Assembly: GCA_002733575.1 (NCBI GenBank)
Contig: NVWB01000005.1
Location: 20,502 to 84,501, forward strand
DNA length: 64,000 bases
DNA from: Blastopirellula sp.
GTDB taxonomy: Bacteria; Planctomycetota; Planctomycetia; Pirellulales; Pirellulaceae
Direction: 5' to 3'
A model generated the notes under the pieces. It was not told where the DNA came from. It searched no databases and saw nothing but the letters and a program-made list of their open reading frames with translations. Below, one piece after another: positions 9,174-61,646 of this stretch. The first letter of the stretch is position 1. Each line of letters starts with the position of its first letter. The position numbers were made by a program, and so were the translations under genes.

Positions 9174-9187
9174 ACTCAAGTCTTTCC

Positions 9188-11563: not shown

Positions 11564-11743
11564 AGATTTTCAAATCCAAAGTTGTTCGACATTCAACATG
11601 AAATCTCTTGCGGCTGCGCCGCCCAGTTTGCGATCAAACAGGGCTACCCATTCTTTTCTTTGAATCAGCCCCCGATTTGCAAACCGCGTCTCTAGCGGTT
11701 AAGTTAAAGGGCTCACTTAAATTTCATCCTGGAGTTTTGTCAC

Positions 11744-12499: not shown

Positions 12500-12537
12500 A
12501 GCACAACCTTCACTCGATTTGATCTTAGGAGAACACG

Positions 12538-13326: not shown

Positions 13327-13348
13327 GAAATGTTCAATGCGTATTACG

Positions 13349-13612
13349 AGGGCATTTCTAAAGATAGCATACTGAGTATTCACCGATGGTTGGGGCAAAT
13401 GATTGTCATGTTCTCCGGTTCTTTCTAGTCTCTCCAGTCTAGTAATGCTTCAGATTGAATTTATTTATTAGTCCCGATAGGGACGATATCGTGTAGCCAG
13501 GGAATGAATTCCCTGGCTACACGATATCGTCCCTAACGGGACTGAAAAAACAGAAAAATAAAAAATCCGCTTTTCATAATTAGTCGGAACAAGGATTTTT
13601 AAAATGCTCTAG
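13349..13612. repeat. Palindromic MITE-like element, copy B (about 264 bp)
   Basis: Copy B is in reverse orientation to copy A. Its core, 13470-13543, is a 74-bp near-perfect palindrome (35 of 37 positions pair) containing the GTCCC/GGGAC and CCAGGGAA/TTCCCTGG hairpins with no spacer at the centre. The flanks match copy A: 'gcatttctaaagatagcat' at 13352-13370 and 'ttttaaaatgctctag' at the right end. The terminal ctag provides the TAG stop of the downstream minus-strand sulfatase (13609-13611). The element sits exactly between two converging genes, where the hairpin could stop transcription from both sides. Confidence 0.85.
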
Positions 13613-14973: not shown

Positions 14974-15002
14974 CGGTAAATTATCCAGTCTGTGTAAGAA
15001 CT

Positions 15003-16532: not shown

Positions 16533-16642
16533 TGAGTGCACCAGAAATAAATGAAAAGTACCACAAAGGGGAGAATCTTTCTTCCATTCGTGTTATTCTA
16601 AACAAAAACTACAAGAGTTACCGACCCCAGACGAAAATAACT

Positions 16643-17095
16643 ATGGAACAAGCTCCGCGTAAATATACATCAAAACTATCACAGGCTCATTTTTCCTGTG
16701 GAATCGTGGCATTTCTTGGTGCGTTGGTCAGTTTAACCGACTGGCCAGAATTGCCCGATAACTTGACCGAGTGGTTGCCGCTGACCATTGCGGCATGGAT
16801 TATCGCCGGGATTGTACAATTAATGCTGGCCCAGGGCCATATTCGCACATCTGTATTAGATCGACAAAACTTGCAACTACCGGCAGCAGCGGAACGTAAA
16901 ACTACGTTGGTTTGGGCCGCCACAAATGTTGTTGTTTTGTGTGCCGTATTCTATTTTTACTGGCAAGGTTCCCAGTCGATCTTACTATTGGCAAATCAGA
17001 ATTTGTTGTTAGTTAGCCTAGCGATTAGCAACTCGTTTTCACTGATCGTTTGGATCGCTCGCTGGTTCACAATTTCCGACTCCTCACAAAGCTAA
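16643..17095 (+). CDS. Small multi-pass membrane protein, unknown
   Basis: A 150-residue protein with four predicted membrane segments, near residues 17-35, 47-65, 88-105 and 112-140. ATG 16643 is preferred over an ATG 111 bases upstream, because the longer form would overlap the divergent lipoprotein start and adds a polar, low-complexity N-terminus. I do not recognise the family. It ends six bases before the solute-binding lipoprotein gene, so the two are probably co-transcribed. It is too short, and lacks the EAA motif, to be the ABC permease for that binding protein. Confidence 0.7.
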   Translation: MEQAPRKYTSKLSQAHFSCGIVAFLGALVSLTDWPELPDNLTEWLPLTIAAWIIAGIVQLMLAQGHIRTSVLDRQNLQLPAAAERKTTLVWAATNVVVLCAVFYFYWQGSQSILLLANQNLLLVSLAISNSFSLIVWIARWFTISDSSQS

Positions 17096-17101
17096 TCGAG
17101 T

Positions 17102-18136
17102 ATGACTTTTCAGAATAAACACCAAACGATACTATTTCTTGCATTATTGACCGTGGTCGGTTCGTTGTGGGGCTGTCGGTCTGCTTCTGAGAACGAAGTG
17201 ATCGTCTACACCGCATTGGATCAACAGTTCTCAGAACCGCATTTCAAGATGTTCACCGAGCAAACCGGTATTCCAGTCGTGCCGAAGTTTGATACTGAAG
17301 CCAATAAAACCGTAGGGCTTACTACAGCAATCTTGGCAGAAAAGAATCGGCCTCGCTGTGATTTGTTTTGGAACAACGAAATTCTCAATACATTACGGCT
17401 CGAAAAGGCGGGGCTGCTCGACGTTTACTTTCCTAAAAACCGGGAATCCTTTCCGGCAGAGTTTCGTTCAGCGGAAGGACACTGGAGCGGCTTTGCGGCC
17501 AGAGCCCGAGTATTAATAATCAACACCGATAAAATAAAACCGGCCGATTTGCCTGAGTCGATTTTTGATCTCGCCGACCCGGCTTGGAAAGGCCAATGTG
17601 GATTTGCCAAACCACTGTTTGGAACGACCGCCACACATGCTGCGGTTTTATTTGCGACACTCGGCGAAGAAAAAGCAACGCAGTTTTTTACTGATCTAAA
17701 AGCAAACGCTCGCATGATGCCTGGTAACAAGCAAGTGGCCCTAGCGGTTTCAAACGGACAACTGGCCTTTGGGCTCACCGATACCGACGATGCCATCATC
17801 GAAATCGAACGCGGCATGCCGGTTGCCATTGTCTACCCTGACCAGGGAGCCGATCAATTGGGCACACTGTTCATTCCGAACACTTTGGCAATCATTAAAA
17901 ATGGCCCCAATACCAAAGCGGCCCAACAACTGGTCGATTATCTACTAACCGCAGAAGTTGAAACGGCCTTATCGCAGGGCCCTAGTGCTCAAATTCCGTT
18001 GAATAAAAACATTGATATCGAACTGCGAGTTGAATCGCCTCAGACTATCAAGTCAATGCAAGTCGATTTCCACGAAGCGGCCAACCACTGGAACACCGCC
18101 GCCGCACAGATGGAAGCGTTGTTCTTGGCGCCGTAG
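17102..18136 (+). CDS. Extracellular solute-binding lipoprotein (iron(III)-type family)
   Basis: A 344-residue periplasmic binding protein of the family 1 / Fe(III)-type ABC transporter group. A signal sequence ends in a lipobox-like SLWGC (C25). The mature N-terminus 'EVIVYTALDQQFSEPHFKMFTEQTGI' is characteristic of this group, as are 'CDLFWNNEI' and 'FTDTDDAI'-like stretches (GLTDTDDAIIEIERGMPVAIVYPDQG). It should capture a small ligand, iron or an anion, for a membrane permease. No permease or ATPase gene is nearby, so it is an orphan binding protein. The downstream gene (18172) is 35 bp away on the same strand. Confidence 0.88.
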   Translation: MTFQNKHQTILFLALLTVVGSLWGCRSASENEVIVYTALDQQFSEPHFKMFTEQTGIPVVPKFDTEANKTVGLTTAILAEKNRPRCDLFWNNEILNTLRLEKAGLLDVYFPKNRESFPAEFRSAEGHWSGFAARARVLIINTDKIKPADLPESIFDLADPAWKGQCGFAKPLFGTTATHAAVLFATLGEEKATQFFTDLKANARMMPGNKQVALAVSNGQLAFGLTDTDDAIIEIERGMPVAIVYPDQGADQLGTLFIPNTLAIIKNGPNTKAAQQLVDYLLTAEVETALSQGPSAQIPLNKNIDIELRVESPQTIKSMQVDFHEAANHWNTAAAQMEALFLAP

Positions 18137-18171
18137 AATAACGTGGGCACGTGTCTATCAAGGAAAGAAAA

Positions 18172-18723
18172 ATGAGTCGAAGAGAAACAATCCGACAACA
18201 ACTAGAGAGAGCGGCAAAAGACAATCTCATCGTTCGGGTCTACCGAAGTAAAATGGGGGGCGAATGGGAACACGGATATGTTGTAGGCATGGGGGATGAT
18301 TTTATTGCATTGGAATCAATTTCTAATTCAATTTATTATGATGGTTATCGCTGCATTCTTTTATCCGATGTTACGAAATGTGATGTTCCTGACAAATACA
18401 GTGAATTCCTAGAGAAAGCATTGAGATTACGGGGACTGAAACAGCAAGGCGACCAAGGTGTTGATTATTCTTCAGCAAAATCTATTATTCAGTCAGTTTC
18501 AGAGAGATTCCCTCTTGTGACAATTCACCAAGAGAGACTTTATCCCAATGAATGCTACATTGGGAGCGTTGACAAACTTAGTAATGGTTTTCTTGAGTTA
18601 CAGGAAATTGATCCTGGTGGAATATGGTGTGAGGAATCGGAGCCCTACAAGTTATCGGATATAACAAAAATAGCATTCGGAGGAGCCTACGAAGAAGCGT
18701 TATTTCTAGCTGTAAATGGTTAG
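18172..18723 (+). CDS. Hypothetical protein with two similar beta-barrel-like halves
   Basis: A 183-residue cytoplasmic protein, function unknown. ATG 18172 is chosen because aaggaaag lies just upstream; a GTG start 21 bases earlier is also open. Two halves show a similar pattern. Residues about 17-77 read 'LIVRVYRSKMGG', then 'GYVVGMGDDFIALESIS', then 'CILLSDVTKCDV'. Residues about 118-177 read 'LVTIHQERLYP', then 'CYIGSVDKLSNGFLELQEI', then 'PYKLSDITKIAF'. This suggests a tandem small beta-barrel (Sm/SH3-like) fold, by inspection only. It is visibly more AT-rich than its neighbours, which may point to transfer. Confidence 0.7.
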   Translation: MSRRETIRQQLERAAKDNLIVRVYRSKMGGEWEHGYVVGMGDDFIALESISNSIYYDGYRCILLSDVTKCDVPDKYSEFLEKALRLRGLKQQGDQGVDYSSAKSIIQSVSERFPLVTIHQERLYPNECYIGSVDKLSNGFLELQEIDPGGIWCEESEPYKLSDITKIAFGGAYEEALFLAVNG

Positions 18724-18854
18724 AAGTCTCGTAGGATGGCTGCTTGCCACTTACGCTTACCCACATTTTTGGCTTGGATGTTTTAGGAGTTCGACGCCGT
18801 TGACTAGTTGGTGGAGTTTACCGAGAAGTGTCTCTACTTCTGCATAAATAAAAC

Positions 18855-19856
18855 TCACGCTTCAACTCGCTCGATCTGTCGAGATCGAATTCTTGGCGCC
18901 ACCGCTTCGGCATCGGTGATTTGTGAATTGCGTACGATGCCGAGTTCGTCTGGCGATTTTCCAACCCAAGTGCTTTCTTTTCCGTGGATACTTATCGTTC
19001 CACTGGCTGGATCAAACGTCAGGGTCGTGAACAACGCGTCTTGGTAAGGGCATGTCGAACTAATCCAGCGGTGCTGTTTGTGAATCTCAGGCGAATAGCT
19101 TTCGTGCTTGTAAGTTCCCCCGACCCATTTATAAGAGGCCGAGTTCACATGCAGATATGAAATCTTTTCGACTTGAATGAGATCGTCAATATGTGTGTGC
19201 CCATTCAAGCAGAGGACCACTTTGTCGGCATGGGCACTCAAGATTTGTTGAATCTCTTTTGCATTGTCAATCGCCGAAGAACCGGCTAAAGGTTGATGGC
19301 AAACCACGACAACAGGGCCCTCGAATGTTTTCAGTTGTTCTTTCAGCCAAGTGACTTGCTGCTTGCCGACAAACTTGACATACCCGCCTTGGTGCGTGGG
19401 CGAACCTTTGTCGTTGCCATCGAGAACCAAAAATCGCAAGCCGCCAATGTCATGATGATAAAAGCGATCACTCATTCCCCAAACATCCAGGCACTGCTGC
19501 TTTGTGTGCCCACTATCAGTATCATGATTTCCAATTACATGCAGCGAAGTAGCGTGCGCCTGATTGAATTTATCGATGACCGGTTTATTGGCTTTGCTGG
19601 GATACGCAAAATCTCCGAGCTGCATAATTGCATCTGGTTTAACTTTGTCCATCTCGCTCAGAAAGTCGTCTAACCTCGCCTCGCCATCGTGCATGATGTC
19701 TTGATGCAAATCGGCAATCAAGCCAATCTTCACTGGCTTCTCCAACTGATGAACCCGAGCCTTGGCCTCCGCTGCCAGCGAAATAGAAGCGGCAGTTGCA
19801 CCTAATGTCAAAACAAACTCCCGACGAGACGATTTTTTAGTTGATGAATTTGGCAT
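18855..19856 (-). CDS. Calcineurin-like metallophosphoesterase, Tat-exported
   Basis: A 333-residue protein with a twin-arginine signal (SSRREFVLTLG, residues 9-19) ending near AEAKA. Metal-binding motifs of the calcineurin-like family appear in order: IADLH, LGDFAY, GNHDTD, VVCHQP and NGHTH. They would bind two metal ions and cleave a phosphomonoester or phosphodiester in the periplasm. The C-terminus holds 'LTFDPASGTISIHG'. The substrate is not apparent. The gene stands alone. The 130 bp between it and the converging upstream gene has nothing recognised; element C lies 131 bp upstream of its start. Confidence 0.9.
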   Translation of the reverse strand: MPNSSTKKSSRREFVLTLGATAASISLAAEAKARVHQLEKPVKIGLIADLHQDIMHDGEARLDDFLSEMDKVKPDAIMQLGDFAYPSKANKPVIDKFNQAHATSLHVIGNHDTDSGHTKQQCLDVWGMSDRFYHHDIGGLRFLVLDGNDKGSPTHQGGYVKFVGKQQVTWLKEQLKTFEGPVVVVCHQPLAGSSAIDNAKEIQQILSAHADKVVLCLNGHTHIDDLIQVEKISYLHVNSASYKWVGGTYKHESYSPEIHKQHRWISSTCPYQDALFTTLTFDPASGTISIHGKESTWVGKSPDELGIVRNSQITDAEAVAPRIRSRQIERVEA

Positions 19857-19986
19857 GGTTGTTTTTCTCTAACGAATCTGAGGTAAAAAGAATGACTCTG
19901 TAAGAAATTGAGATCGTACCCTGCCCAGCTATGTGCCTGACATTGGAGAAATCATTCTATCACTTGCGGCTTGAGTTGCAAATTAT

Positions 19987-20361
19987 TAGAGCATTTTTAA
20001 AACTGCTGTTCTGCTAAAATATTAGTGCCGGTAGGAACGAAGTCAGCTAGACTGGTTCTTCAGAACCAGGAATAGCCTTGCCTGAAATCTCAAAGTCCCG
20101 GCAGGGACCATGTCGATTTATTACGTTATTTCAAGCTGAAAACCAAAGAGATTTCTACCACGAATCGGTAGCCTGAAATCAAAACATCCACGATGCGCCC
20201 GACGTCGTCCCATCCGGGACTATCTTGAATTTGGGCGAAGTCACCTAGCCTGGGGATGAATCCCCAGGCTAGGTGACTTCGCCCCTATCGGAACTGAGAA
20301 AACTTGAAATTCCGGACTCTTTTCGTAGATTCTCGGAGTACAATTCTTCAAGATGCTCTAG
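19987..20361. repeat. Palindromic MITE-like element, copy C (about 375 bp)
   Basis: The ends are perfect inverted octamers: tagagcat (19987-19994) and atgctcta (20353-20360). The interior differs from A, B and D in sequence but keeps the plan. A large hairpin near 20233-20285 pairs gggcgaagtcacctagcctgg with its complement around gatgaatc, and GTCCC/GGGAC-type stems occur near 20097 and 20208. It lies between the metallophosphoesterase promoter side and the end of the TPR gene, 9 bp from that gene's stop codon. Confidence 0.78.
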
Positions 20362-46582: not shown

Positions 46583-48418
46583 TCATTTAAGAATCGGGCG
46601 GATTTCGGTCATAGAGACCCAGCCGAAGCCTAGATTGGTGACAGTTATCCGTAAAAACTTGGCGGTTGCTTGGAACTTGTGCTCGCTTTTCTTCGTGACT
46701 TGTTTGCTTTCTAGCTGATCGACTACGGTTTGCCACGATTTGCCGTCAGTTGAGACTTCCACTTTGTGATTGAACCACGTTGGGTTTTTCCAGTCGATGG
46801 TAAGCCCTGCCAGGTTTTGGGGTTCTTCAAATTCAACTTGCCACCACTGGGGCACAGCGTCTCCATTGCCGGCCCAGCGTGTGGTGTGCTTGCCGTCAAC
46901 GGCGGCCTGGGGCGGATTGCCTTGCTGGTTGGATGATGCCGAGACCATTCCCAGTTTTGTTTTCACCGGTATGGTCGCGGATTTGGATGATTGTTTTGGG
47001 CGTGATTTGGGTTTAGCGGGCTTTGATTTTGCTGCATCGTAATTAGGGTTCACCGTTGGCATTTGTGCGTCGACAGATTTTCGCCATGCTTTTAAATCTT
47101 CGAGCATTGACTTGGCCAGTTGGATTTCAGTGTCGGCCAGATCGTTCTTTTCAGCAGGATCTTTTTTCAGATTGTAGAGTTCCAATTTTCCATCTTCAAA
47201 AAACTCAATCAGTTTCCAATTGCCTTGACGTATGGCTCCATACGGATTGGTGCGATGATAGTGCGGGTAATGCCAGAATAGTTCGTTGCGATCAATGTTG
47301 CCTGACTGTTTCAGCAGTGAAGTCAAGTTGACACCATCCAAATGTTGATCTGGTTTTTGTGCCAGCCCGGCCATGTCTAACATGGTCGGATAAAAATCGG
47401 TGCCAATGATGGGCGTATCACAAATAGAACCTGGTTGAACTACGCCGGGCCATTTGACAAAAGTTGGCTCTCGGGTTCCACCTTCATAAGCCAGGGCCTT
47501 TGCTCCACGTAATCCGCCAGAGCTTTGTTCGGAGGTTCCGCCGTTGTCACCAGTGAAAATTACCACGGTGTTTTTATCCAGATTCAATTCTCGCAATTTC
47601 TTCATCACGCGGCCGACACTGTCGTCGACGCTTTGCAATAATCCAGCGTAAGCAGGGGAAACCCGTTCGTTGTTTTTATTCTCGAAACCTTTGGCCTTGT
47701 TCTTATATTTTTCGAGGTACTCCGGCTTGGTCATAATCGGCCCATGTACCGCGTAGTACGAGAGATAAAGCAAAAAGGGTTCGTCTTTTGAATCTTCGAT
47801 AAACTTTTCGGCATAGTCGGTCAGATTATCGGTAAGGAAGTCGCCTTCTTTACTGCCTTCGATATTGGGCATATCAAAAGGGTGAAAGTATTTGCCTGGG
47901 CCTTTGGGTTGTCCCCATTCGCGTCCGCCGATGTTTTGATCAAAACCGTGAGAATCAGGGTAGTGTTTATCGAACAGGTCCGGTTCTCGATTAGGCATCA
48001 AGTGCCACTTGCCGAAGAACTGGGTTTTGTAGCCTGCTTCTTTTAACGCTTCCGGCAAGGTGATCAGACTGTGATCTATTTTCATTTTCCAATCTGGAAT
48101 CAATAGCTTAGGGTTGCCCTTGCCGTGTCCTGCGATCCAATCGGTCAAATGCAATCGACCAGGATACTGCCCGGTGATAATGGCCGCCCTGCTTGGCGAG
48201 CAAACCGTGCATGCCGAATAGGCGTTGGTGAACTTCATCCCTTCGCTGCACAGTTGATCTAGGTTGGGTGTTTCGTGAAAAGTGGCCCCATAGCAACCAA
48301 GATCACCCCAGCCGAGGTCATCGACCAGAAAGAAAACAAAGTTCGGTTTCTGTGCGGCCTGAGTTGTTGAAGCGGCAAAAACCGCGACGAAAGCCAGAAG
48401 ATAGATACGGAGTCGCAT
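46583..48418 (-). CDS. Sulfatase with C-terminal discoidin-like domain
   Basis: A 611-residue secreted sulfatase. ATG 48418 is preferred over an ATG seven codons earlier because AAGGAA lies just upstream. A signal peptide covers 1-21. Metal ligands are at LVDDLGWGD (D33, D34) and the formylglycine site is C73 in CSPSR, with 'TGQYPGR' completing the signature. 'VIFTGDNGGT' provides the second metal pair. Residues about 440-480 are Lys/Pro/Ser-rich linker. The last 130 residues ('VSASSNQQGNPPQAAVDGKHTTRWAGN', then 'WWQVEFEEPQNLAGLTIDW') form an F5/8 type C domain that would bind a sugar or polymer substrate. Confidence 0.94.
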   Translation of the reverse strand: MRLRIYLLAFVAVFAASTTQAAQKPNFVFFLVDDLGWGDLGCYGATFHETPNLDQLCSEGMKFTNAYSACTVCSPSRAAIITGQYPGRLHLTDWIAGHGKGNPKLLIPDWKMKIDHSLITLPEALKEAGYKTQFFGKWHLMPNREPDLFDKHYPDSHGFDQNIGGREWGQPKGPGKYFHPFDMPNIEGSKEGDFLTDNLTDYAEKFIEDSKDEPFLLYLSYYAVHGPIMTKPEYLEKYKNKAKGFENKNNERVSPAYAGLLQSVDDSVGRVMKKLRELNLDKNTVVIFTGDNGGTSEQSSGGLRGAKALAYEGGTREPTFVKWPGVVQPGSICDTPIIGTDFYPTMLDMAGLAQKPDQHLDGVNLTSLLKQSGNIDRNELFWHYPHYHRTNPYGAIRQGNWKLIEFFEDGKLELYNLKKDPAEKNDLADTEIQLAKSMLEDLKAWRKSVDAQMPTVNPNYDAAKSKPAKPKSRPKQSSKSATIPVKTKLGMVSASSNQQGNPPQAAVDGKHTTRWAGNGDAVPQWWQVEFEEPQNLAGLTIDWKNPTWFNHKVEVSTDGKSWQTVVDQLESKQVTKKSEHKFQATAKFLRITVTNLGFGWVSMTEIRPILK

Positions 48419-48744
48419 GGTTGATTCCTTGGGAGTCACAAATATGGATTGAGGTGTGCCCTGCGTTGGGACTTCTATTGTAATTCAATCGGGTCATGTA
48501 TGTGCGGCCCCAATCATCGTGTGCTTTGGTGACTTATTGGGTATAGGCAGTATTTACCACTGGTTTGCTGTGATGAAGTGCTGGTTTTTGGATAAAACAC
48601 TCAGAATCTTGGCAACCTCATGAGAAATCTCTCGTTAATGTACATTGTAGCCCAAGTGTGCTAATTGCCACCGGGGTTACAGATCGTCTAAAATCTGACG
48701 ATTGACCTTTACTAGTATTGCAGTGTAAGAATTGGAATAAACAG
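48419..48744. other. Divergent intergenic region before vgrG
   Basis: A 326-bp gap between the minus-strand sulfatase and plus-strand VgrG genes. It must contain both promoters; I see no convincing paired -35/-10 boxes, no repeat and no coding potential. The AT-content rises toward the VgrG start. Confidence 0.6.
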
Positions 48745-50646
48745 ATGACCATAGAGTCGATTGGAAATGCGAATCAGAGCTTCGAATTCAAAATAGATGG
48801 GAAAGAAATCGAAGACCTCTATCTTGATTCCTTTCACGGCAAGGAAGGAATGTCTCGACTCTTTTCTTTTGAATTAGTTTTGTATTCAGAAGATTTGAGT
48901 CTAGGTCCTAAGGATTTTTTGAACAAAGAGATTAGTTTTTGTGTAAAGCAAGAAGATTCCCCGCAATGGTACAACGGTGTAGTCCAGCGGTTTCAGTACG
49001 GCGGCTTCATTGCGGCTGAGATCGTTGAGTACCGCATCACGGTCGTTCCCAAAATGTGGATACTAACTAAGAATCGAAAGTATCAAATATTCACTGAAAA
49101 GAAAGCTTCGGATATCATTTCATCGATTCTTTCTGAAAATGGAATCTCGGGATCATCGATAGCAACTACAAACACAGTCCATGAGAAGTGTACTCAATAT
49201 GGTGAGAGTGACTTTCATTTTATCTCTCGATTAATGGAACAAGAAGGACTGTTTTACTACTTCAACCATAGTAACGGATCTCACGATCTTGTCATCGAAC
49301 AAGGAAAGGGCTGGCAAGGTGGATCCCCAATGAAACCAAGCATCGATCAGTTCTATTCTGTCAAGCCTCAATACGAATTGAGAAGCCATGAAACGAAAGC
49401 AATGGCTTACGACTTTGTCAAAGATGTGAAGTTGATTGAAAAAAAGTCGCCTTCAAAAGATTCGGATGTCAAAAAACATGGTGCAGGAGAACTTCAAGAG
49501 TACACAGGTATCTCAAACAAAAGTATCTTGAACGATTATGCTGATGCCAGGATGTCTACCGAAGAGTCGCAATATGCAAAGGCTTCGTTTACTACTTTTG
49601 ATTCTAGCATCAGAATGGGAAACGTAATTCAGTGCAACGATTTTCCCAGTCTGGATTCAAGCGATGCGTGCAGCTTAATCGATTCAGACTGGATTCCGAT
49701 TGAATTAGAGACGCATGCATTCGAGCAAAATCGCATCTCAAATATCGAAGAAAATAAAACTTTCCAAGAAAAGGGAGAGTTCTTTATCAGAGAAATGAAT
49801 TCAGGCGCGAAGGAATTAGATCGCGTGTTCGGAGACCTTGAACTCGATTCTCCTTATCTCTTGAAAGCAGAAAATTTTGTCGATCTTTGTAGTAAAAATA
49901 CAAGAGAATTCACTCCATTTTTCAACCGGATGCACTGCCTCCGCAAAGGCGCCAACCTGACCCCCCCGCGGATTACGACCAAACCGGTAATCTCAGGCGT
50001 GCAAACCGCACGTGTGGTAGATCACTCCGATCCAGATCCAGACAAGATTGGCGGGAGAATAAGAGTCCAATTCTTCTGGCATGAGAAAGAAGACTCTTGC
50101 TTCGCTCGCTTGACGCAGCCTATTGCAGGTAGCGGCTGGGGTTTTATGGCCATGCCACGTGTAGGGCAAGATGTGGTAGTAGCCTTCGAACAAGGTGATC
50201 CTGATCAACCGGTGATTGTTGGCAGTGTTTACAATGGGAAAAATCATCCTTCGTATCCAGAAACAGAAGATTGGAGCAAAACTTATTTCCGAGATGAAAA
50301 AGGGAGTGAAATCCTATTTGATGAAGAAGGCCCAGACGGAGCACTTCTTTCTCTCAAGGCGATCGAATATCTCAAACGCGAAGTCATGAAAGACATGAAG
50401 AGTGAAATTCATGGTGACAAAAAGGAAACTATAGACGGTGAACGCACCACTAAAATCACAAGAGATGACACGCTTGAAATCACAGGCGACCACACCACTA
50501 AAGTTACACAAAATGAAAAACTGGATGCCCTGCAAATTGAAATCACTGCCAAAACGACTATCAAGTTAAAAGCGGGGGGGAGTTCCATCGAAATCGGCCC
50601 TGGCGGAGTGACGATTAAAGGACCGGTGATCAATTTAAATCCTTAA
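48745..50646 (+). CDS. vgrG: Type VI secretion spike protein VgrG
   Basis: A 633-residue VgrG. ATG 48745 gives the expected start MTIESIGNANQSFEF; a TTG further upstream is less likely. The gp27-like part (about 1-380) shows 'SRLFSFELVLYSEDL' and 'ESDFHFISRLMEQEGLFYYFNH', the latter diagnostic. The gp5 OB-fold (about 410-500) shows 'GRIRVQFFWHEKEDSCFARL' and 'GQDVVVAFEQGDPDQPVIVGSVYN'. A beta-helix needle follows with repeats 'GERTTKITRDDTLEITGDHTTKV'. No extra effector domain follows. C7 (49961-49967) and G7 (50574-50580) runs lie in the gene. The first 1.2 kb is AT-rich and the rest GC-richer. PAAR and FHA-DUF4123 genes follow. Confidence 0.95.
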   Translation: MTIESIGNANQSFEFKIDGKEIEDLYLDSFHGKEGMSRLFSFELVLYSEDLSLGPKDFLNKEISFCVKQEDSPQWYNGVVQRFQYGGFIAAEIVEYRITVVPKMWILTKNRKYQIFTEKKASDIISSILSENGISGSSIATTNTVHEKCTQYGESDFHFISRLMEQEGLFYYFNHSNGSHDLVIEQGKGWQGGSPMKPSIDQFYSVKPQYELRSHETKAMAYDFVKDVKLIEKKSPSKDSDVKKHGAGELQEYTGISNKSILNDYADARMSTEESQYAKASFTTFDSSIRMGNVIQCNDFPSLDSSDACSLIDSDWIPIELETHAFEQNRISNIEENKTFQEKGEFFIREMNSGAKELDRVFGDLELDSPYLLKAENFVDLCSKNTREFTPFFNRMHCLRKGANLTPPRITTKPVISGVQTARVVDHSDPDPDKIGGRIRVQFFWHEKEDSCFARLTQPIAGSGWGFMAMPRVGQDVVVAFEQGDPDQPVIVGSVYNGKNHPSYPETEDWSKTYFRDEKGSEILFDEEGPDGALLSLKAIEYLKREVMKDMKSEIHGDKKETIDGERTTKITRDDTLEITGDHTTKVTQNEKLDALQIEITAKTTIKLKAGGSSIEIGPGGVTIKGPVINLNP

Positions 50647-50734
50647 TCGTACCACTAGTTCAGGTGTAAGATCCCAATAGTTTAAAGTCTGTATACTTAG
50701 TTAAAACCAAATTAATATCGTAAAGGAGAAACCA

Positions 50735-51028
50735 ATGCCCCCTGCTGCCAGAGTTGGAGATATGCACGTTTGCCCTAAGGTAGAACCTGGTCCGGTTCCG
50801 CACGTGGGTGGACCAATAATGCCATTAGGATCACACAATGTTTTAATTGGAAGCATGCCAGCGGCACGTAAAGGAGACATGGCAACTTGCACAGGCCCGC
50901 CAGATACCATTTCTCAAGGTTCTGCTAACGTGATGGCCAATGGCATGCCAATGGCTAGAATGTTAGATTCATGTAACCATGGTGGGATAATTGTCCAAGG
51001 CTTTCCTATGGTCATAGTTGGCGGATAA
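50735..51028 (+). CDS. PAAR-domain spike-tip protein
   Basis: A 97-residue protein with a PAAR fold along its full length: PPAARVGDMHVCPKVEPG at the start, then 'MPAARKGDMATCTGPPDTI' and 'MPMARMLDSCNHGGIIVQG'. The His and Cys residues (H11, C13, C49, C78, H80) fit the zinc-binding PAAR tip, which sharpens the VgrG spike and can carry effectors. It starts at ATG 50735 with a strong AAAGGAG. It contains no toxin extension. The gap to the VgrG gene is 88 bp and to the FHA gene 35 bp, so the three are probably one transcript. Confidence 0.94.
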   Translation: MPPAARVGDMHVCPKVEPGPVPHVGGPIMPLGSHNVLIGSMPAARKGDMATCTGPPDTISQGSANVMANGMPMARMLDSCNHGGIIVQGFPMVIVGG

Positions 51029-51063
51029 TAGAAAAACCTCATCAAAGAATAACTGATAAAATT

Positions 51064-52725
51064 ATGCGTGCTCGCATCACCATCGAATCAACCGGCGACA
51101 AACCAGTTGGAACTCGTATCCGAATTGAAGAAGGTCAAGTCGTCCGCTTCGGTCGCCACGCTAGTGCCGATGTGACCGTGGCCGATAATCAAATCTCGGG
51201 CCTGCATTTTGCACTCCAGTGCGATGCAGCACGCTGTAGAATTCGAGACTTACAAAGCACCAACGGCACGTGGGTCAACGAGATCAAAGTGAATCTCATC
51301 GAACTGACCGATGGCGATACCTTTAAAGCAGGCAACACAACCTTTAGCATTTCGTTTGAAGGGAGCGTGAATCAGACGGTCAACGACCCTGAAGTCTACC
51401 CTGAACTGCGTGCATTACAGGCAAAAGAAGAAGCAAACACTGGCCCGGCTGTGGGCGCACCAGAATTCCAGCCTGCATCAATGGATGCACCGCACTTGGG
51501 TCTTGATCTCAATCCGGCTCCGCTTGATGTTTCTTCCGCACCTGTTGTTAATCCAAACATTGTTTCAGATGAACCTGCGGCTGCGGTTGATCCAGGCTCT
51601 TTGCCCGATACCGGTGCTGACCCTGTAGCTATCGTGCCTGCTGAAATGTCTGAAGCGAATGTAAGGCCGGTTTCTCGAATGATCTTGAACTTTCAAGATC
51701 AATCAGGCCCTCGTCGCGTGTGGCTCGTTCCAGGTCAAACCGTGATCATCGGTCGAACAGAGATGGCCGATGTCACCGTGACCGGCGATGGCCAAATTTC
51801 TTCGGCCCACTTTGCGGTCGATTGCAATGCCGAGAAGTGCAAAGTGCGTGACTTACAAAGTCAAAACGGCATACTGCTTAATGACACAAAAGTCCCTCAC
51901 GCTTCCATCTACGATGGTGACCAGATTCAAGCGGGTGACACGCAGTTCATTGTCCAAGTACAGGGAGGACCAGAAGCTCCAGGCGCTGCACTACGAACTT
52001 GGAGCCCCGGTAATCAGGCCGAAGCTCCATTGGCTGGTAGCCACCAGTTCGCCACTTATCATAAGACGAAAATCAATGACGAACTCTTTGCCTTTGAGCA
52101 AGTAGAGAGTGATCCACCGCCCATTGAACTGATTCGTCGTCTGGCCCGCAACCGCACCTTTTATTTAGTGATTGATCCTTTGAAAGTAGGCAAGATCAGT
52201 TCCCAAATCGATAGCGTTGAAACTAAATACCTGATCGATTGGGTACCTGAAGTCACTGCCGAGGCCATGTCTCCGTTGATCCACAAGATCTGTGATGTCG
52301 AACAAAATATCGACTATCTTTCCGAAGTCTGGGGAAGAGACGGCGCAATGTTGTTCTTCCCTGTGAATGACGATGGTCCGCTGTTTGATCACTTGATTTC
52401 GCTGGCCAAGTATTATCCCGAAGAAAGCCAATTACCAGAAGGCGTCACCGAAGCCCCCCCTTCGATGTTGATCTATTACTGGCCCAGCGTGTTAAGCATG
52501 CTGATCGTGAACAAAAACTTTCCACTGGCCAAACGTTTCTTAGAAAACGTCGAGTTCGCCGTCGGCCAAGGTGAATCGCCAGAAACTTGGAAAGCTTATG
52601 CCCGCAAACCATTTCAAGAGAAATTGATCGCTGCTGGTTTCATGGAATTCACGGAGAGTGAAGAGGAACCTGAAGAACCGCCTGTGGAAGATGATTCAGG
52701 TGAATCAGCGTCACAAGACGCCTAG
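51064..52725 (+). CDS. Two FHA domains fused to a DUF4123-like adaptor domain
   Basis: A 553-residue cytoplasmic protein. FHA domain 1 is at about residues 16-98 (FGRHASADVTV, then LQSTNGTWVN); FHA domain 2 at about 205-305 (IGRTEMADVTV, then LQSQNGILLN). Each shows the phosphothreonine-binding G-R...S-x-x-H and N-G pattern (QISGLHF, QISSAHF). A Pro/Ala-rich linker joins them. Residues from about 365 ('TFYLVIDPLKVGKISS', 'AMLFFPVNDDGPLFDHLISL', 'MLIYYWPSVLSMLI') resemble DUF4123, the adaptor that loads effectors onto VgrG. The assignment of the last domain is by pattern and should be taken as likely. An acidic Glu-rich tail ends the protein. It would link phospho-signalling to spike loading (inference). 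Confidence 0.8.
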   Translation: MRARITIESTGDKPVGTRIRIEEGQVVRFGRHASADVTVADNQISGLHFALQCDAARCRIRDLQSTNGTWVNEIKVNLIELTDGDTFKAGNTTFSISFEGSVNQTVNDPEVYPELRALQAKEEANTGPAVGAPEFQPASMDAPHLGLDLNPAPLDVSSAPVVNPNIVSDEPAAAVDPGSLPDTGADPVAIVPAEMSEANVRPVSRMILNFQDQSGPRRVWLVPGQTVIIGRTEMADVTVTGDGQISSAHFAVDCNAEKCKVRDLQSQNGILLNDTKVPHASIYDGDQIQAGDTQFIVQVQGGPEAPGAALRTWSPGNQAEAPLAGSHQFATYHKTKINDELFAFEQVESDPPPIELIRRLARNRTFYLVIDPLKVGKISSQIDSVETKYLIDWVPEVTAEAMSPLIHKICDVEQNIDYLSEVWGRDGAMLFFPVNDDGPLFDHLISLAKYYPEESQLPEGVTEAPPSMLIYYWPSVLSMLIVNKNFPLAKRFLENVEFAVGQGESPETWKAYARKPFQEKLIAAGFMEFTESEEEPEEPPVEDDSGESASQDA

Positions 52726-52741
52726 CACTCCTAGTGAATTA

Positions 52742-53173
52742 ATGAAAATTATTGAGAAAAACGACATCTGCTATCCCTACGCAGGCGCGAGGACCACTGG
52801 CATTAGAATTGGCGGAATCGCACTCTGCACTCTCGTATCAATTGCCGCCTTCTGTTTCACACCCTTGATCATTATGATGCTCTATTTTGTGATTTGGGTA
52901 ATTGGATTGGAGTTGTTCTTTTTCTATTATCGATCGATGCGATTAAATATATTTAACAACGGAGAGCTCGTTCAAGCAGTTGTGGACAACAAAAGAATTA
53001 TCGAGAAAGTTTCGATCTACAAACTATCGGTTGAGTATGAGTTCAACGAAGTTCGTTATCAAGCTTATTCATCAGTCCCGAATCGTTTTTTCCTCTCGGT
53101 TAAGCTAGGTAGTAAAATTAGCATCAAAGTGGACCCTCGTTCGCCAAAGCGCTGGATTCCTTATGAATCGTAG
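52742..53173 (+). CDS. Small membrane protein, DUF3592-like, last gene of the VgrG cassette
   Basis: A 143-residue protein. ATG 52742 lies 16 bases after the FHA-gene stop; in-frame codons upstream overlap that gene. Two hydrophobic helices cover about residues 20-65, and the C-terminal 75 residues form a beta-rich domain ('LVQAVVDNKRIIEKVSIYKLSVEYEFNEVRYQAYSSV', then 'LGSKISIKVDPRSPKRWIPYE') resembling DUF3592. By position and topology it is a candidate immunity or accessory protein for a VgrG-delivered toxin, but no toxin is identified. It converges with the PHP-type gene, with one base between the stops. Confidence 0.7.
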   Translation: MKIIEKNDICYPYAGARTTGIRIGGIALCTLVSIAAFCFTPLIIMMLYFVIWVIGLELFFFYYRSMRLNIFNNGELVQAVVDNKRIIEKVSIYKLSVEYEFNEVRYQAYSSVPNRFFLSVKLGSKISIKVDPRSPKRWIPYES

Positions 53174-53174
53174 A

Positions 53175-55316
53175 TTATCTACCCGCTCTAGCTCTCTCGG
53201 TTTCTTTCCAGGCGTTTAGATACTTGAGAAACCCTTCTTTGACTTGGGGCGAAGCGGCATCAATTGCAGCCAGTGATTTCATGTCGATCAGATTTCCGTT
53301 TTTCTGTTGATACAAATGGGCCGCTTGCGAAGCGATTGCTTGATCAAACCCAGAAAGCTGCTTGAGTAGTTTAGGCAGATTATTGTTTGACTCATTTACG
53401 ATCTTCTCCGCATACACTCTTGCCGCATCGGCTTTGCCGTTGTTGTCGGCATCGACCCAAGCGGCTCCGCTACAGCCGATCAATTCAGCAGTAAACTTGG
53501 GCGAAAGCGGCTGGTAAGGCTTGGCGGTCTTCCAGTAGTTACCCTTCACACCAGGGCCACGGGCAATTGCGACTAAGTGAACATCATGGTTAGGAGTGTC
53601 GATTTCCCAGTTGGCGGTATGAATAACACCATTTTTGGCTCTCGATCTTTTCATTGAGCCATACGTGTCTAACTTCTCATCGATTCTCTTCGTAATTTCT
53701 TCACTTCGGATCAGCTGCCCATTGGCATAAAGTTCCACCACCGAAGCATCAACCCAATGCGGGCCTAGCACGCGAACTTGAATCCTCAGTTTCTCGCCAT
53801 TGGTCTTTACCAGGTCACCCGAACTATATTTCCCATTGATCTTCATCTCTGCCAATAAACCGTAGCTTACCATCACCTTGCCAGCGACGAAGTTTTCTAC
53901 CGCTTGATCAATGTTGATTTTACCGGGAACATAGTCATCGGCTCGAATATACGTTCGCCCCTGACCAACAATATATCGGGTCACATCGTGCGAATCACTT
54001 GAACCAACCGGCGTGACTTGATATCCGCGATTTAATAGTGCCATCCAATCGTGAAACAACCGCATGATATCGGTTTGGGTTGCGCCAGAGTTGATGACTT
54101 CCATCGCATTAAATCGCATGTCCCAGCCATCTAAGTTTTCGCCAACGACATCGTTAAAGTACTCAGGCGAAAAGGGCTTCGTTCCGCGATGAACATCACG
54201 GGCATGATTCAAAATCGCAATCTTGACACCAGGTGTGCCGTAGATCGAATCAAGTGTCTCCTTCCAAACCGAAGATTTATAATTCGGCGGCGCGGCACCT
54301 TCTGCAAATGGAAAGACATTGAAGTGCCCTGTTTGCGTAGTGACTTCGTCTCCCATGACAGGCGTAAAGTATTGGCTGACCCCCATCTTCTCGGCCCAAG
54401 GCCGGGTATCAATCACCACGTTGTGATCGGTCGTAATCGGCAGTTCAATTCCTTCCCCTGCCAATGTGATCATCCGTTCTTCAACGGTCGAATCCCCATG
54501 GCCAGAGTGTGTGCGGGTGTGGGTATGCGTATCACACGCGACATAGCCAGGGGTGGGAACTTCTCGTCTGAGGTAAAGATAGAGCACTTGCGCTTCATCA
54601 TCTTTGCATTCAAAGGAGTATTTGCGTACGGAGTACTCAAATCCGCGGCTAGCATACAGGGTGTATTTGCCTTTGGGCAGATGAAATTCGGCTTTTCCAG
54701 TACTAGTATAAATCACGCCAGGACGAACGGCCATGTGATCATTAGAAACTGCATCCGTATCAAACAACGACCCGTTTTCATCCACAATCGTCAATCGGCC
54801 CGGTGAGTATTCTTTCGTGTCGAACATCTTTAGATGAACTTCGATATCAACCTTCGAGAAAAGCTCCTGCTTAGATTTTGCATAGAGCGTAATATCCCCT
54901 ACCAAAATGTCATCGGCAGCAACACCTTCTTTCGTACTGATCGTCAGTCGATTGGTTCCCTGTTTTACACTGGTCGGTGGAACTTCAATAAAGTGGACGA
55001 TATCATTTTCATCTCTGATGAGCGTGCTGATGGCTCGGTCATTAAACCGCACGGTCCATTGTTGTTTGATGTCTTGTTGTCGCAATCGCAAAGTCCAGCC
55101 GGTTGCTTCTTTTGCTCCCAGTTTTTCTTTGTCAACTTGAAAGATCTGCTCAAACAGTCGGGCATCGGCGGTTTCACTAAACTCGGCCCATTCGCGTGGC
55201 TCTGCATTTCGCAGGTGTAACATGCCGGAGTGGATTGCGACCGATGAAGGATCGGCAGAGTAGGCCAGAGAAGAGAAGGTCAGCAACAGTAAAATAGTAG
55301 AGAGGGAGTGTCTCAT
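53175..55316 (-). CDS. CehA/McbA-type PHP metallohydrolase, secreted
   Basis: A 713-residue protein with a signal peptide (about 1-20, cleavage AYS-AD). The N-terminal half (about 25-250) is beta-rich, with 'VRFNDRAISTLIRDE' and a carboxypeptidase-regulatory-like segment 'KGKYTLYASRGFEYSVRKYSF'. The PHP-type metal-binding region follows: 'CDTHTHTRTHSGHGD', 'TTDHNVVIDT', 'LNHARDVH' and 'VGSSDSHDVTRYIVG'. The family includes metal-dependent hydrolases of the CehA/McbA group (esters/carbamates); the physiological substrate here is unknown. It starts at ATG 55316. The C-terminal section contains 'GAAWVDADNNGKADAAR', a calcium-binding-like loop. Confidence 0.86.
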   Translation of the reverse strand: MRHSLSTILLLLTFSSLAYSADPSSVAIHSGMLHLRNAEPREWAEFSETADARLFEQIFQVDKEKLGAKEATGWTLRLRQQDIKQQWTVRFNDRAISTLIRDENDIVHFIEVPPTSVKQGTNRLTISTKEGVAADDILVGDITLYAKSKQELFSKVDIEVHLKMFDTKEYSPGRLTIVDENGSLFDTDAVSNDHMAVRPGVIYTSTGKAEFHLPKGKYTLYASRGFEYSVRKYSFECKDDEAQVLYLYLRREVPTPGYVACDTHTHTRTHSGHGDSTVEERMITLAGEGIELPITTDHNVVIDTRPWAEKMGVSQYFTPVMGDEVTTQTGHFNVFPFAEGAAPPNYKSSVWKETLDSIYGTPGVKIAILNHARDVHRGTKPFSPEYFNDVVGENLDGWDMRFNAMEVINSGATQTDIMRLFHDWMALLNRGYQVTPVGSSDSHDVTRYIVGQGRTYIRADDYVPGKINIDQAVENFVAGKVMVSYGLLAEMKINGKYSSGDLVKTNGEKLRIQVRVLGPHWVDASVVELYANGQLIRSEEITKRIDEKLDTYGSMKRSRAKNGVIHTANWEIDTPNHDVHLVAIARGPGVKGNYWKTAKPYQPLSPKFTAELIGCSGAAWVDADNNGKADAARVYAEKIVNESNNNLPKLLKQLSGFDQAIASQAAHLYQQKNGNLIDMKSLAAIDAASPQVKEGFLKYLNAWKETERARAGR

Positions 55317-57881: not shown

Positions 57882-59336
57882 TTACTTTTTCAAATCTTTT
57901 TTGATCTGCTTCATTTCAGCAGCCTGGGGCAAATCTTTGTAATACGGATCAAGCGGGTAACAGCCAGAGATCACCCCGTGGCGTGGGGCCGTGGTGCAAT
58001 CGCTAAAAGTACGGCATACCTTTTTGCGTGTCATCGTGCCGTCTCGCAAAGTTTGGGCTGGCAAGTCAGGGAAAGAAAGCACCATGCGGCCTAATCCTAC
58101 GCTGTCGGCCCAGCCTTGGCGGACGACTGCCTGTGCCACATGCGGCAAGTAATCTTGCAGATAGGAATACCCTGTGCCAACCAGCGGCAAGCCTGGCACG
58201 GCCAGTTTGCACTGGCGGGTTGCTTCTATCTGCCGGGCCACGCCAATCAACGGGTCTTCAGGCGGCAAGTATCCATCACTCGGCGGAAAAATGGCCGGCC
58301 TTTGAATGTGCGGATTATAATAAGGGCTGCCGCAACTCAAGTTCACTGAGAAGACGCCCAACTGTTTGAGAAGCTTCAACAACAGAATCGGTTCTTCCAG
58401 ATCAAGTTGCAGCGGGGCTTCAGCGTTGGTGCCAAACCCGTATTGATAAGGAAGCAAACCACTGGCGTCCATCGGCTGTCCGACTTCTTGGCTGGTTTGA
58501 TACGGCAAAATATCGAACACACTTAACCGCACCCCGATCTCTAGTTCAGGGTGTTCTGATTGAATTCGTTGAATGATGGTCGACAACAGACGAGTTCTGC
58601 CTTGGAAGTCACCGCCATATTTTCCTTCGCGGGTTCGGGCCGATAAAAATTCATGCAGTAAATAACCATGACACGCTTTGACATCGACAAATTGAAATCC
58701 AACTTCCTTGGCCAAGCCCGCCGCGCGAACGTAGTTGTCAATCAAGGGTTCTAATTCATCATCGGTCCAGACTACCGAATCATCGTTGGGATCGATTCCA
58801 AACTTGCCATCCAGCAGTGGGTGATGATAGGCAATGCGGGGTTCTAGTTTTTTCTTGTCATAAGGGCGGCAAAATCGACCGGAGTGCGTAAGCTGCAAAC
58901 CAGTGACAAAATCGGAAGTTGTGCCGAATGATTCTTCGTGCGCCGACATCAGGGTGTCAAACAATTGGGCCAAGCCGGCTTTGTTTTCAGGGATTGCCAT
59001 CGTCTGATTCGGGTTGGCCCGCCCATCAGGCTGAACGGCTGCCGCTTCTCCACCCCAGATGAACTTGGCACCAGAGAGCCCAAAGTTGCGCCAGCGATTC
59101 AAAGTGAATTCAGTCGGCGATCCATCGGTGTTGGCATCCCAGCCTTCCATCGGATGAATGCACCAGCGATTGCCGGCAGTCAGATTGCCAAGTTTTAAAG
59201 GTGCTGCCAGCGGAGAACCTTGTTCGGCGGTTAAGATCTCTTGATCACAAGGCAAGTCGATGCCCAGCGATTCAACTCGCTGTTGAAAATCTTCGACCGT
59301 CTTGAGTTGAGCTACTTTGATGTATTGTTGATTCAT
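57882..59336 (-). CDS. Old Yellow Enzyme-family NADH:flavin oxidoreductase
   Basis: A 484-residue FMN-dependent oxidoreductase of the Old Yellow Enzyme (NADH:flavin oxidoreductase) group, cytoplasmic. The TIM barrel begins with 'PLKLGNLTAGNRWCIHPMEGWDANTDG', the usual substrate and flavin region. 'QLTHSGRF', 'VDVKACHGYLLHEFLSARTREGKYGG', 'EIGVRLS' and 'GLGRMVLSFPDLP' are typical active-site and FMN-binding stretches. It probably reduces activated C=C bonds; the physiological substrate is unknown. The C-terminus contains several Cys (KVCRTFSDCTTAPRHGVISGCYPLD), which could bind an iron-sulfur cluster as in related enzymes. It ends 21 bp downstream of the UvrD gene on the same strand. Confidence 0.9.
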   Translation of the reverse strand: MNQQYIKVAQLKTVEDFQQRVESLGIDLPCDQEILTAEQGSPLAAPLKLGNLTAGNRWCIHPMEGWDANTDGSPTEFTLNRWRNFGLSGAKFIWGGEAAAVQPDGRANPNQTMAIPENKAGLAQLFDTLMSAHEESFGTTSDFVTGLQLTHSGRFCRPYDKKKLEPRIAYHHPLLDGKFGIDPNDDSVVWTDDELEPLIDNYVRAAGLAKEVGFQFVDVKACHGYLLHEFLSARTREGKYGGDFQGRTRLLSTIIQRIQSEHPELEIGVRLSVFDILPYQTSQEVGQPMDASGLLPYQYGFGTNAEAPLQLDLEEPILLLKLLKQLGVFSVNLSCGSPYYNPHIQRPAIFPPSDGYLPPEDPLIGVARQIEATRQCKLAVPGLPLVGTGYSYLQDYLPHVAQAVVRQGWADSVGLGRMVLSFPDLPAQTLRDGTMTRKKVCRTFSDCTTAPRHGVISGCYPLDPYYKDLPQAAEMKQIKKDLKK

Positions 59337-59357
59337 GTTTTGACTGATTTTGTTGAA

Positions 59358-61646
59358 TTATTTGGACGAAGCGACAGGTCGTAAATTACTATGAGCAAGC
59401 CGGAACTTCTTTTCACCGGCACCCATGAAAAACTGGACTACCGCGGTCCGTTTGGTGTTTTCTCCGCTTAGAGCAATGATTTTTCCGAGGCCATATTCCT
59501 CATGCGTCACGATTTGACCTTGCTTGAAGGCATTGGGCGACACTGGTTCTTGGCTCGCACTGCTTGAATCTGCACCTAGCATATCAGCGGCAGTCATCAC
59601 ATGGCTGGAAGACTCAAACGGGCTTGTTTGCTGTGTTGTTGTGGTTTCGCCGGTGCTGTCGAACTGGTCGATTTCAAATTCTGGCTCGGGTTGAAAAAAT
59701 GAATCTTGAGCAACCGGAACATGGGCCTCGTGAATTTCCATCTCGTCACGCGGCAGTTCCATCAGAAACGGGCTGGGCACTGTCATGTGGCGGCGCCCTC
59801 GGAAGTCTCGATACTGGGCCGTGCTGATATAAAGATCTTCTTCGGCTCGCGTAATTCCCACAAAGAACAACCGACGTTCTTCTTCCAGTTGCTCTGGTTT
59901 TTCGCGAGAACGTTCGTGCGGTAGCAACCCTTGTTCCACTGCCACAATATGCACCACTGGAAATTCAAGCCCTTTGGCCGCATGCAGCGTCATCAAGGTG
60001 ACTCGATCTAAATCACCATCAAAATCATCGGTCTCGTTGACCAGGGCCTTGTTCTCTAGATATTGCTCTAAGGTTCCATCATGCGGATGGTCCATGTCGA
60101 ATTCTCGGGCCGATGAGAGCAGTTCCTCAATGTTCTCCAACCGGGTTTGATCCTCGGTATCGGTCGAGTCTTCAAATTGTTTACGAAAACCGGCCTCGTT
60201 GATAATCACGCCGAGGATCTGTTCCACTGGGTCATTAATTCTGATGCCCATTTTATCAAATAGCGTCACGAACTTGGCAACTGCGAGTGCCGAGCGATTG
60301 CTCAATGATTCGATCATGCCAGCCTCTCGCGCGGCTTCCAGCATCGTCAGTCCATGCTTTAACGCATGCAATCGCAGCTTCATGATCGTCGCTTTGCCGA
60401 TGCTACGTTTGGGCGTGTTGATAACACGTTCTAACGCCACATCATCGCTCGGATTGTTCATCAGCAACGTATACGCCAGCACATCTTTGATTTCTTTCCG
60501 ATGATAGAACTCTACGCCGCTGACAATCATATAGGGCACACCCTGGTTGCGTAGTGCGTCTTCATAAGTTCGTGACAACGCATTGATGCGATAGAAGACC
60601 GCAAAGTCACGTGCCCTGCGTTTGCCTTGGGCAATTTGGGCCGCAATCCGCTGGGCAATGGCGCCGGCTTCTTCTTTGTGGTTGAAGTACGAAGTCAGTT
60701 TGACCGGATCGCCCGGCTGGTTTTCAGTAAACAGCTCCTTCTTCTTGCGTTTCTTGTTGTTCGTAATCAGGGCATCGGCCACCGATAAAATATTCGGCGT
60801 GCTGCGGTAGTTTTGCTCTAAACGAACCACTTTGACTTGTGGGAAGTCTTTCTCAAAGTCCAGAATGTTCTTTAAACTGGCACCCCGCCAACCATAGATC
60901 GATTGATCCGGGTCACCAGTGACGCCTAAGTTCGGGTAGTCTCTCGAAAGAGCCCTGACCATTAGGTACTGCACAAAGTTGGTGTCTTGATATTCGTCGA
61001 CTAATAGATACTTAAATCGCTCATCAAGCGAACTGCGAAGTTCTTCGTTTTCGACCAAAATTCGGCAAGCGTGCATCAGTAAATCATCGAAATCGACCGC
61101 GTTCGATTTCAACAATGCCTTTTCGTACAATGGGTAAATGCGTTCAACAATGGAACCAACATCGTCGCCGAGACGCCGTTTATAACGCTCGGCGGTTACC
61201 ATGTTGTTTTTTGCGTGACTGATTTCCTTAGAGATCTTTTCCGGCGTGTAATGGGCCGTGTCGATATCGGCTTCTTCGATCGTTCTTTTCAACAGTTGCA
61301 TCGAATCACGTGTGTCGTAGATCGAATAGTTGGAAGCGAGACCTGCGTATTCGGGATACTGACGTAACAGTCGGGCACAAAAGCGGTGAAACGTGCCGAG
61401 CCAAACCGATTGCTGCGGCACCAACCGGTCAAGCCGCTGCCGCATTTCATCGGCCGATTTGTTGGTAAATGTCAACGCGACAATTTGATGCGAGGGCACA
61501 CCTTGTTCCAACAGATGTGCAATTCGGTGCGTGATGACTCTGGTCTTTCCACTACCGGGCCCTGCCAACACTAACAGTGGTCCATCGACATGCGTGACCG
61601 CATCAATTTGTGGTTGCGTAAGAGATTCGAGTAAGCGATTGGTCAT
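59358..61646 (-). CDS. UvrD/PcrA-type DNA helicase
   Basis: A 762-residue superfamily 1A helicase that unwinds DNA 3' to 5' in repair and replication restart. A Q-motif (LTQPQIDAV) is followed by Walker A AGPGSGKT (K34), motif Ia 'ALTFTNKSADEMRQR', Walker B 'YLLVDEYQDTN', motif III 'GDPDQSIYGWRGA', motif IV 'LEQNYRST', motif V 'LMTLHAAKGLEFPVVHI' and motif VI 'ERRLFFVGITRAEEDLYI'. The C-terminal Tudor-like domain ('GQIVTHEEYGLGKIIALSG', then 'FFMGAGEKKFRLAHSNLRPV') contacts RNA polymerase in PcrA. uvrD and pcrA are both possible names. The gene starts at ATG 61646. Confidence 0.96.
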   Translation of the reverse strand: MTNRLLESLTQPQIDAVTHVDGPLLVLAGPGSGKTRVITHRIAHLLEQGVPSHQIVALTFTNKSADEMRQRLDRLVPQQSVWLGTFHRFCARLLRQYPEYAGLASNYSIYDTRDSMQLLKRTIEEADIDTAHYTPEKISKEISHAKNNMVTAERYKRRLGDDVGSIVERIYPLYEKALLKSNAVDFDDLLMHACRILVENEELRSSLDERFKYLLVDEYQDTNFVQYLMVRALSRDYPNLGVTGDPDQSIYGWRGASLKNILDFEKDFPQVKVVRLEQNYRSTPNILSVADALITNNKKRKKKELFTENQPGDPVKLTSYFNHKEEAGAIAQRIAAQIAQGKRRARDFAVFYRINALSRTYEDALRNQGVPYMIVSGVEFYHRKEIKDVLAYTLLMNNPSDDVALERVINTPKRSIGKATIMKLRLHALKHGLTMLEAAREAGMIESLSNRSALAVAKFVTLFDKMGIRINDPVEQILGVIINEAGFRKQFEDSTDTEDQTRLENIEELLSSAREFDMDHPHDGTLEQYLENKALVNETDDFDGDLDRVTLMTLHAAKGLEFPVVHIVAVEQGLLPHERSREKPEQLEEERRLFFVGITRAEEDLYISTAQYRDFRGRRHMTVPSPFLMELPRDEMEIHEAHVPVAQDSFFQPEPEFEIDQFDSTGETTTTQQTSPFESSSHVMTAADMLGADSSSASQEPVSPNAFKQGQIVTHEEYGLGKIIALSGENTKRTAVVQFFMGAGEKKFRLAHSNLRPVASSK

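Follow-up and report, generated by a model that had tools for sequence, protein, structure and literature searches.

A VgrG-PAAR cassette with an FHA-FHA protein bearing a remotely DUF4123-like domain in Blastopirellula

Gene content of the cassette

The window, a 64,000-nucleotide stretch of a Blastopirellula sp. contig (NVWB01000005.1), contains at 48745-53173 a cassette of four plus-strand genes, all with uninterrupted frames, that is flanked by two minus-strand genes, a sulfatase gene at 46583-48439 and a gene for a protein of 713 aa at 53175-55316. The cassette genes, together with a gene pair further along the window that has homologs at related loci, are as follows.

48745-50646, plus strand: VgrG (TssI) spike gene; 633 aa, ending at the beta-prism (..VINLNP) with no C-terminal extension
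50735-51028, plus strand: PAAR tip gene; 97 aa, no extension; PF05488 at 81.3 bits
51064-52725, plus strand: gene of the FHA-FHA-(DUF4123-like) protein; 553 aa, C-terminal domain at about residues 320-526
52742-53173, plus strand: small membrane protein gene; 143 aa from the ATG at 52742 (171 aa from a GTG at 52658)
57882-61646, minus strand: FMN-oxidoreductase and UvrD-type helicase genes; 64-68% identical to genes of loci L055, L056 and L057

The spike gene is identified by NCBIfam TIGR03361 (286.6 bits, cut-off 186.35) and by Phage_GPD and OB domains (PF05954/PF04717) above the Pfam cut-offs, with Gp5_trimer_C below its own. It is a divergent VgrG, showing 26-32% identity to relatives aligned over at least 90% of the query among the 120 listed of 1507 matches, where names such as Novipirellula and Pirellulaceae point to a planctomycete; a search of 241 genomes at E 1e-60 matched only the window's own copy, at a cut-off that conceals weaker VgrGs shown by another search. 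The PAAR protein passes the PF05488 cut-off of 27, scores below the cut-off of the NCBIfam PAAR model (38.7 of 124), and is 52% identical to a PAAR protein on contig C88 of the same assembly. The third protein matches the FHA family PF00498 over two stretches (E 1.1e-26). The grouping of a spike, a tip and an FHA-FHA protein whose further domain is remotely DUF4123-like, essentially as the first-pass annotation proposed, is thus borne out by TIGR03361, PF05488 and PF00498 and by the sibling profile comparison described below.

Also upheld is the remark that the usual toxin gene is absent, since no effector or toxin family known to Pfam or NCBIfam is recognised in the cassette; the downstream effector and immunity genes that are usual in auxiliary VgrG islands are likewise not recognised there. 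Promoter and terminator scans gave results at chance level. The small last gene likely starts at the ATG, 16 bases after the FHA stop, rather than at the earlier GTG. Its product matches no family above cut-off in Pfam or NCBIfam and nothing else in 240 genomes of the taxonomic family, and presumably resembles DUF3592, which Pfam did not report. It has a hydrophobic two-helix stretch, predicted by AlphaFold run with no alignment as one long helical hairpin region (mean pLDDT 59), so that its earlier description as a small two-helix protein stands, whereas the immunity or cargo role suggested for it is supported by nothing found.

The FHA protein and its C-terminal domain family

Both FHA domains keep the ligand-site residues G-R, S-x-x-H and N-G-x-x-x-N, which are invariant among the orthologues. 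A structure model of the whole protein (mean pLDDT 72) found FHA-type matches in the best 50 of 474 PDB rows (E up to 10, judged by title), two of these 50 being spliceosome chains; the model therefore gives no fold assignment for the C-terminal domain. Nor did a solved relative turn up when the PDB was searched by sequence, once from a single DUF4123 protein and once from four.

The C-terminal domain scores 79 bits against a family model built without the window. Pfam DUF4123 (PF13503) gives no report for the window FHA protein, and a sibling on contig C194, with 18.5 bits against a cut-off of 25.8, also falls short. Profile comparison shows the kinship of the family: 17 FHA-protein C-termini aligned by hhalign to five DUF4123 proteins, these from the same taxonomic family as the window, with a probability of 91% and E 9.2e-7 over 135 columns, and of 100 column shuffles none scored above 23.9, the real alignment reaching 47.5. 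Sibling C-termini taken without the window and the related protein P0002 gave E 5.8e-7 against DUF4123, and the family-alignment genome search also returned the true DUF4123 protein of genome G155 (E 9e-7). The window-orthologue profile matches the sibling C-termini at E 1.5e-17, or 3.2e-26 with the window and P0002 alone; set directly against DUF4123 it gives no significant match (P 0.19 and 0.17), so that the DUF4123 kinship of the window protein is transitive. A direct match of the window protein was sought and obtained neither by Pfam nor by direct hhalign; the link runs through the siblings. Judged by these sequence profiles, the domain thus defines an FHA-fused family remotely homologous to DUF4123, and the proposed DUF4123 likeness of the last domain is seen, remotely, in the sibling family by profile, with no significant direct match of the window protein itself.

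Used as a protein query, residues 318-535 matched nothing but the window protein among 722 candidates, a contig scan of genomes with the single protein found nothing, and the same scan with an alignment found three partial loci, entered only in an FHA scan. With alignment A5 (13 rows, window included) the domain is found in 30 of the 240 genomes of the taxonomic family; in a phylum sample it occurs in 11 of 392, seven belonging to this family and four to another family of the same class. FHA domains were also found in 32 of 33 domain-bearing ORFs scanned, some of which are the same gene in overlapping loci; the odd ORF (L106) is cut by the locus end, and in another scan its 803-aa frame does match FHA. 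A true DUF4123 protein occurs in only 4 of the 240 genomes.

TssK is common in the taxonomic family (93/240 genomes) and accompanies the domain in 29 of the 30 domain-bearing genomes, G134 being the exception. The association is strong by Fisher's test (1e-12), which ignores kinship, and persists when counted by genus (10/10 vs 25/58, p about 0.001) in what is a coarse test. A TssK gene is present within 75 kb on the same contig for 28 of the 48 domain matches, among which the true DUF4123 protein of G155 counts as one, and for none of the five window-type copies, namely the window's and four in genus g43. Taken together the counts support a link between this family of FHA-domain proteins and the T6SS.

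Type VI secretion genes in the assembly and sibling operons

The assembly is binned, 88% complete and 3.1% contaminated. A TssC search of it gave four matches. Contig C49 carries TssA, TssB, TssC, a second TssC, TssE, TssF, TssG and ClpV, as well as a 269-aa gene that we take to be TagJ (NCBIfam reports nothing for it), and contig C338 carries TssK, a TssL that is above the Pfam DotU cut-off and below that of the NCBIfam model, and a 556-aa TssM-like protein with an IcmF-related N-terminal domain. The two contigs may abut, since each ends in what by eye appears to be part of an outer-membrane efflux gene. In G111 a single contig carries TssK, two genes of 214 and 560 aa, and a TssA-to-ClpV run. 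The two tandem TssC genes of C49 (L014 4843-8007) and the short TssM-like gene of C338 (L072 620-2290) have counterparts of similar size in that genome.

Contig C88 holds a further VgrG-PAAR locus, with a kinase-WD40 protein, an FHA protein, a true DUF4123 protein and two Hcp genes, and on C194 an FHA protein gene adjoins a TssB-TssC-like fusion. Tested pieces of C49, C88, C194 and C338 correlate with the window in tetranucleotide composition at 0.82-0.97. Another T6SS, on C170 (L013) and C250 (L073) with kinase and FHA genes on C250, was considered as the organism's own and set aside; its GC is 0.40 and its tetranucleotide correlation 0.64 and 0.53, a deviating composition that makes contamination likely.

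When 441 frames, from the window and bases 1-20000 of its contig, were compared by blastp with 33 proteins from other T6SS loci of the assembly, the only matches were the VgrG, the PAAR protein, the FHA protein and one upstream protein kinase; no kinase gene adjoins the cassette. The kinase-domain protein upstream of the window on contig C406 (L069 9258-13592) shares 35% identity with the C88 kinase over 269 aa and lies far from the cassette. The first-pass annotation was therefore right that no core gene accompanies the cassette in the window, but core genes lie on C49 and C338, so that complete absence of a T6SS is not the case and a system without a T6SS core is rejected; the genome search suggested at that stage did recover both a core and, on C88, another VgrG island. 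Since the assembly has its core genes on other contigs, the cassette counts as an auxiliary VgrG island. Like known auxiliary (orphan) VgrG islands it has VgrG and PAAR genes away from the core, accessory genes, and a core in the same assembly; unlike them it has no recognisable effector or canonical DUF4123 gene and carries an FHA-FHA protein instead.

Operons related to the cassette are found in G022 and G155, where VgrG is followed by an FHA-FHA-domain protein, PAAR, DUF4123 and further genes; the order differs in that PAAR stands before the FHA gene in the window and after it in both siblings. After the true DUF4123 gene the G155 operon encodes a TNT-domain protein (L084 7365-8837; PF14021, E 2.4e-29), a likely effector. 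On C88 (L016) the kinase-WD40 gene (107-5338) directly precedes the FHA-(DUF4123-like) gene (5579-6802), and the two genes also adjoin in G089 and G106 (L059, L087). TssB-TssC-like fusions, with VipA and the VipB N-terminal domain and with VipB_2 not reported, adjoin FHA-(DUF4123-like) genes on C194 (L015 5372-6859) and in G089 (L060 11270-12784) and are 43% identical to each other. A large von Willebrand-type protein adjoins the Hcp and VgrG genes on C88 (L016 14886-18476), and long proteins with 22-30% local likeness to it lie near T6SS-linked genes at other loci (L059, L061, L062, L090, L091).

The VgrG C-termini bear on what the FHA protein might bind. DUF4123 adaptors bind a VgrG C-terminal extension according to the excerpted texts of PMC13133936 and PMC13373197. 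Among nine VgrG C-termini compared an extension is present in four (C88, G022, G155 and G089), three of which have DUF4123 in the operon, while the G089 genome gives no DUF4123 match. The five VgrGs with no extension (window, C170, the second VgrG of G022, G103 and G023) have no DUF4123 in their operons, although the second VgrG of G022 lies only ~4 kb from a DUF4123 gene. Because the sibling operons of G022 and G155 carry a separate true DUF4123 gene, the FHA protein appears to be no simple adaptor replacement, and the original proposal of an adaptor simply fused to FHA domains is weakened both by this and by the tail-less window VgrG.

A phosphothreonine-gated cargo adaptor, the idea of the first-pass annotation, whose C-terminal domain would bind effector and VgrG in the manner of Tap/Tec and whose FHA domains would switch loading, is for these reasons unlikely. 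The remote DUF4123 homology of the domain family, the position of the gene beside VgrG and PAAR, and the lack of any other adaptor gene in the cassette agree with such an adaptor, and the first two are genuine points of likeness to the Tap/Tec proteins (DUF4123, PF13503). However, the VgrG has no tail, the FHA proteins of G022 and G155 coexist with a true DUF4123, no effector gene adjoins, and the direct DUF4123 match is not significant. The window protein further differs from Tap/Tec in its fusion to two FHA domains, in the silence of Pfam, and in the signature Y-D-P-R-V, which reads Y-W-P-S-V.

Orthologues and the possible role of the FHA protein

Orthologues 35-37% identical to the window FHA protein are found in genus g43 at L055, L056 and L057 (G089, G042 and G113). 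There the FHA gene adjoins FMN-oxidoreductase and UvrD-type helicase genes (Pfam, L055 only), the homologs of which lie at 57882-61646 in the window, with other genes between the FHA gene and the oxidoreductase gene. No VgrG or PAAR gene was found by blastp near the g43 orthologues in three stretches of 19.5 kb; the FHA gene can thus do without VgrG and PAAR. In a 22-row tree, support of 99/99 unites the window with P0002, P0003 and three g43 rows, of which P0003 and the g43 rows sit on a long branch. Against the model built without the window, the window's domain scores 79 bits and that of P0002 86, compared with 25-34 for three g43 loci and 19-28 for P0003-P0005, genomic context being covered for the window and the g43 loci. 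Between these two the domain appears better kept where VgrG and PAAR are present (79 bits vs 25-34 in g43, where it has drifted). The spike genes were either lost in g43 or gained in the window lineage.

These orthologues raise the question of whether the FHA protein acts apart from the spike, as those of g43 may, with VgrG and PAAR as recent or chance neighbors. The shared oxidoreductase and helicase neighborhood in g43, where VgrG and PAAR are lacking, would fit this, as would a GC content lower in the VgrG N-half (0.40) and the small gene (0.42) than in the FHA gene (0.505). Such a separate role is nonetheless distinctly unlikely, as the window domain resembles the T6SS-linked family far more closely than do the g43 domains and the same VgrG and PAAR partnership occurs in two other genera. 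Quite improbable is a decaying island, in which a former VgrG-FHA-PAAR-DUF4123-effector operon lost adaptor and effector: the G022 and G155 operons do hold DUF4123 and further genes (in G155 the TNT-domain protein), both lacking in the window, but the four window frames are open, VgrG and PAAR score above Pfam cut-offs, and the gene order differs with PAAR before FHA.

The role of the FHA protein most likely falls between those of Fha1/TagH and Tap/Tec. Threonine-phosphorylation control of T6SS assembly by PpkA-Fha is described in the excerpted text of PMC10433429. Like Fha1/TagH with PpkA, the window protein is a T6SS-associated FHA protein with ligand-site residues, and kinase genes lie beside its paralogues; unlike Fha1/TagH it has two FHA domains and a DUF4123-like C-terminus, and its gene lies in a VgrG island and not in the core (C49/C338) with a PpkA-type kinase. 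It also recalls the Tvp accessory proteins, which in the excerpted text of PMC13373197 are accessory factors of one particular VgrG-PAAR pair but DUF2169-based, and Pfam reported no DUF2169 in the cassette proteins. FHA and DUF4123 are treated as separate proteins in the excerpts of PMC7283901, PMC8861277 and PMC10433429, and that of PMC3482391 has FHA domains in another context with DUF4123 absent. A literature search within one library listed no title naming an FHA-DUF4123 fusion and none on the T6SS of the window's taxonomic group.

The reading tentatively preferred, with a probability of roughly 0.4, is that the FHA-FHA-(DUF4123-like) protein is a phosphothreonine-gated factor for mounting the auxiliary spike on, or keeping it at, the shared machine. 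It is favored because a T6SS signaling factor is what the FHA fusion and the association with T6SS point to, and because a VgrG that lacks the tail, and sibling operons that also encode a true DUF4123, disfavor a plain adaptor. A Hanks-type kinase, for which the kinase-WD40 protein adjoining the C88 paralogue is a candidate, would phosphorylate a T6SS component, and one or both FHA domains would bind the phosphorylated component. The C-terminal domain would contact spike or baseplate through a surface distinct from the one by which true DUF4123 adaptors engage the VgrG tail, and the protein would determine when the VgrG-PAAR spike goes onto, or stays at, the shared T6SS; cargo, if any, would be encoded elsewhere. 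Counting against this gated factor are the lack of an adjoining kinase, the g43 genes that have no VgrG or PAAR nearby, the lack of a TssK gene within 75 kb of any window-type copy, the coarseness of the only test that allows for kinship in the genome association, the domain-bearing genome G134 in which no TssK is seen, and the direct DUF4123 comparison that is not significant.

More broadly, and as a speculation rather less probable than the gated factor, the FHA-(DUF4123-like) fusions might be a planctomycete class of T6SS gatekeepers combining in one polypeptide what Fha1 and Tap/Tec do, the phosphothreonine state picking which spike, that of C88 or that of the window island, is served by the single shared core. 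In a taxonomic family where TssK is common, a phosphothreonine reader joined to a domain of an adaptor-like family would bring a concrete protein to the question of how one among several VgrG spikes is selected for a single T6SS core.
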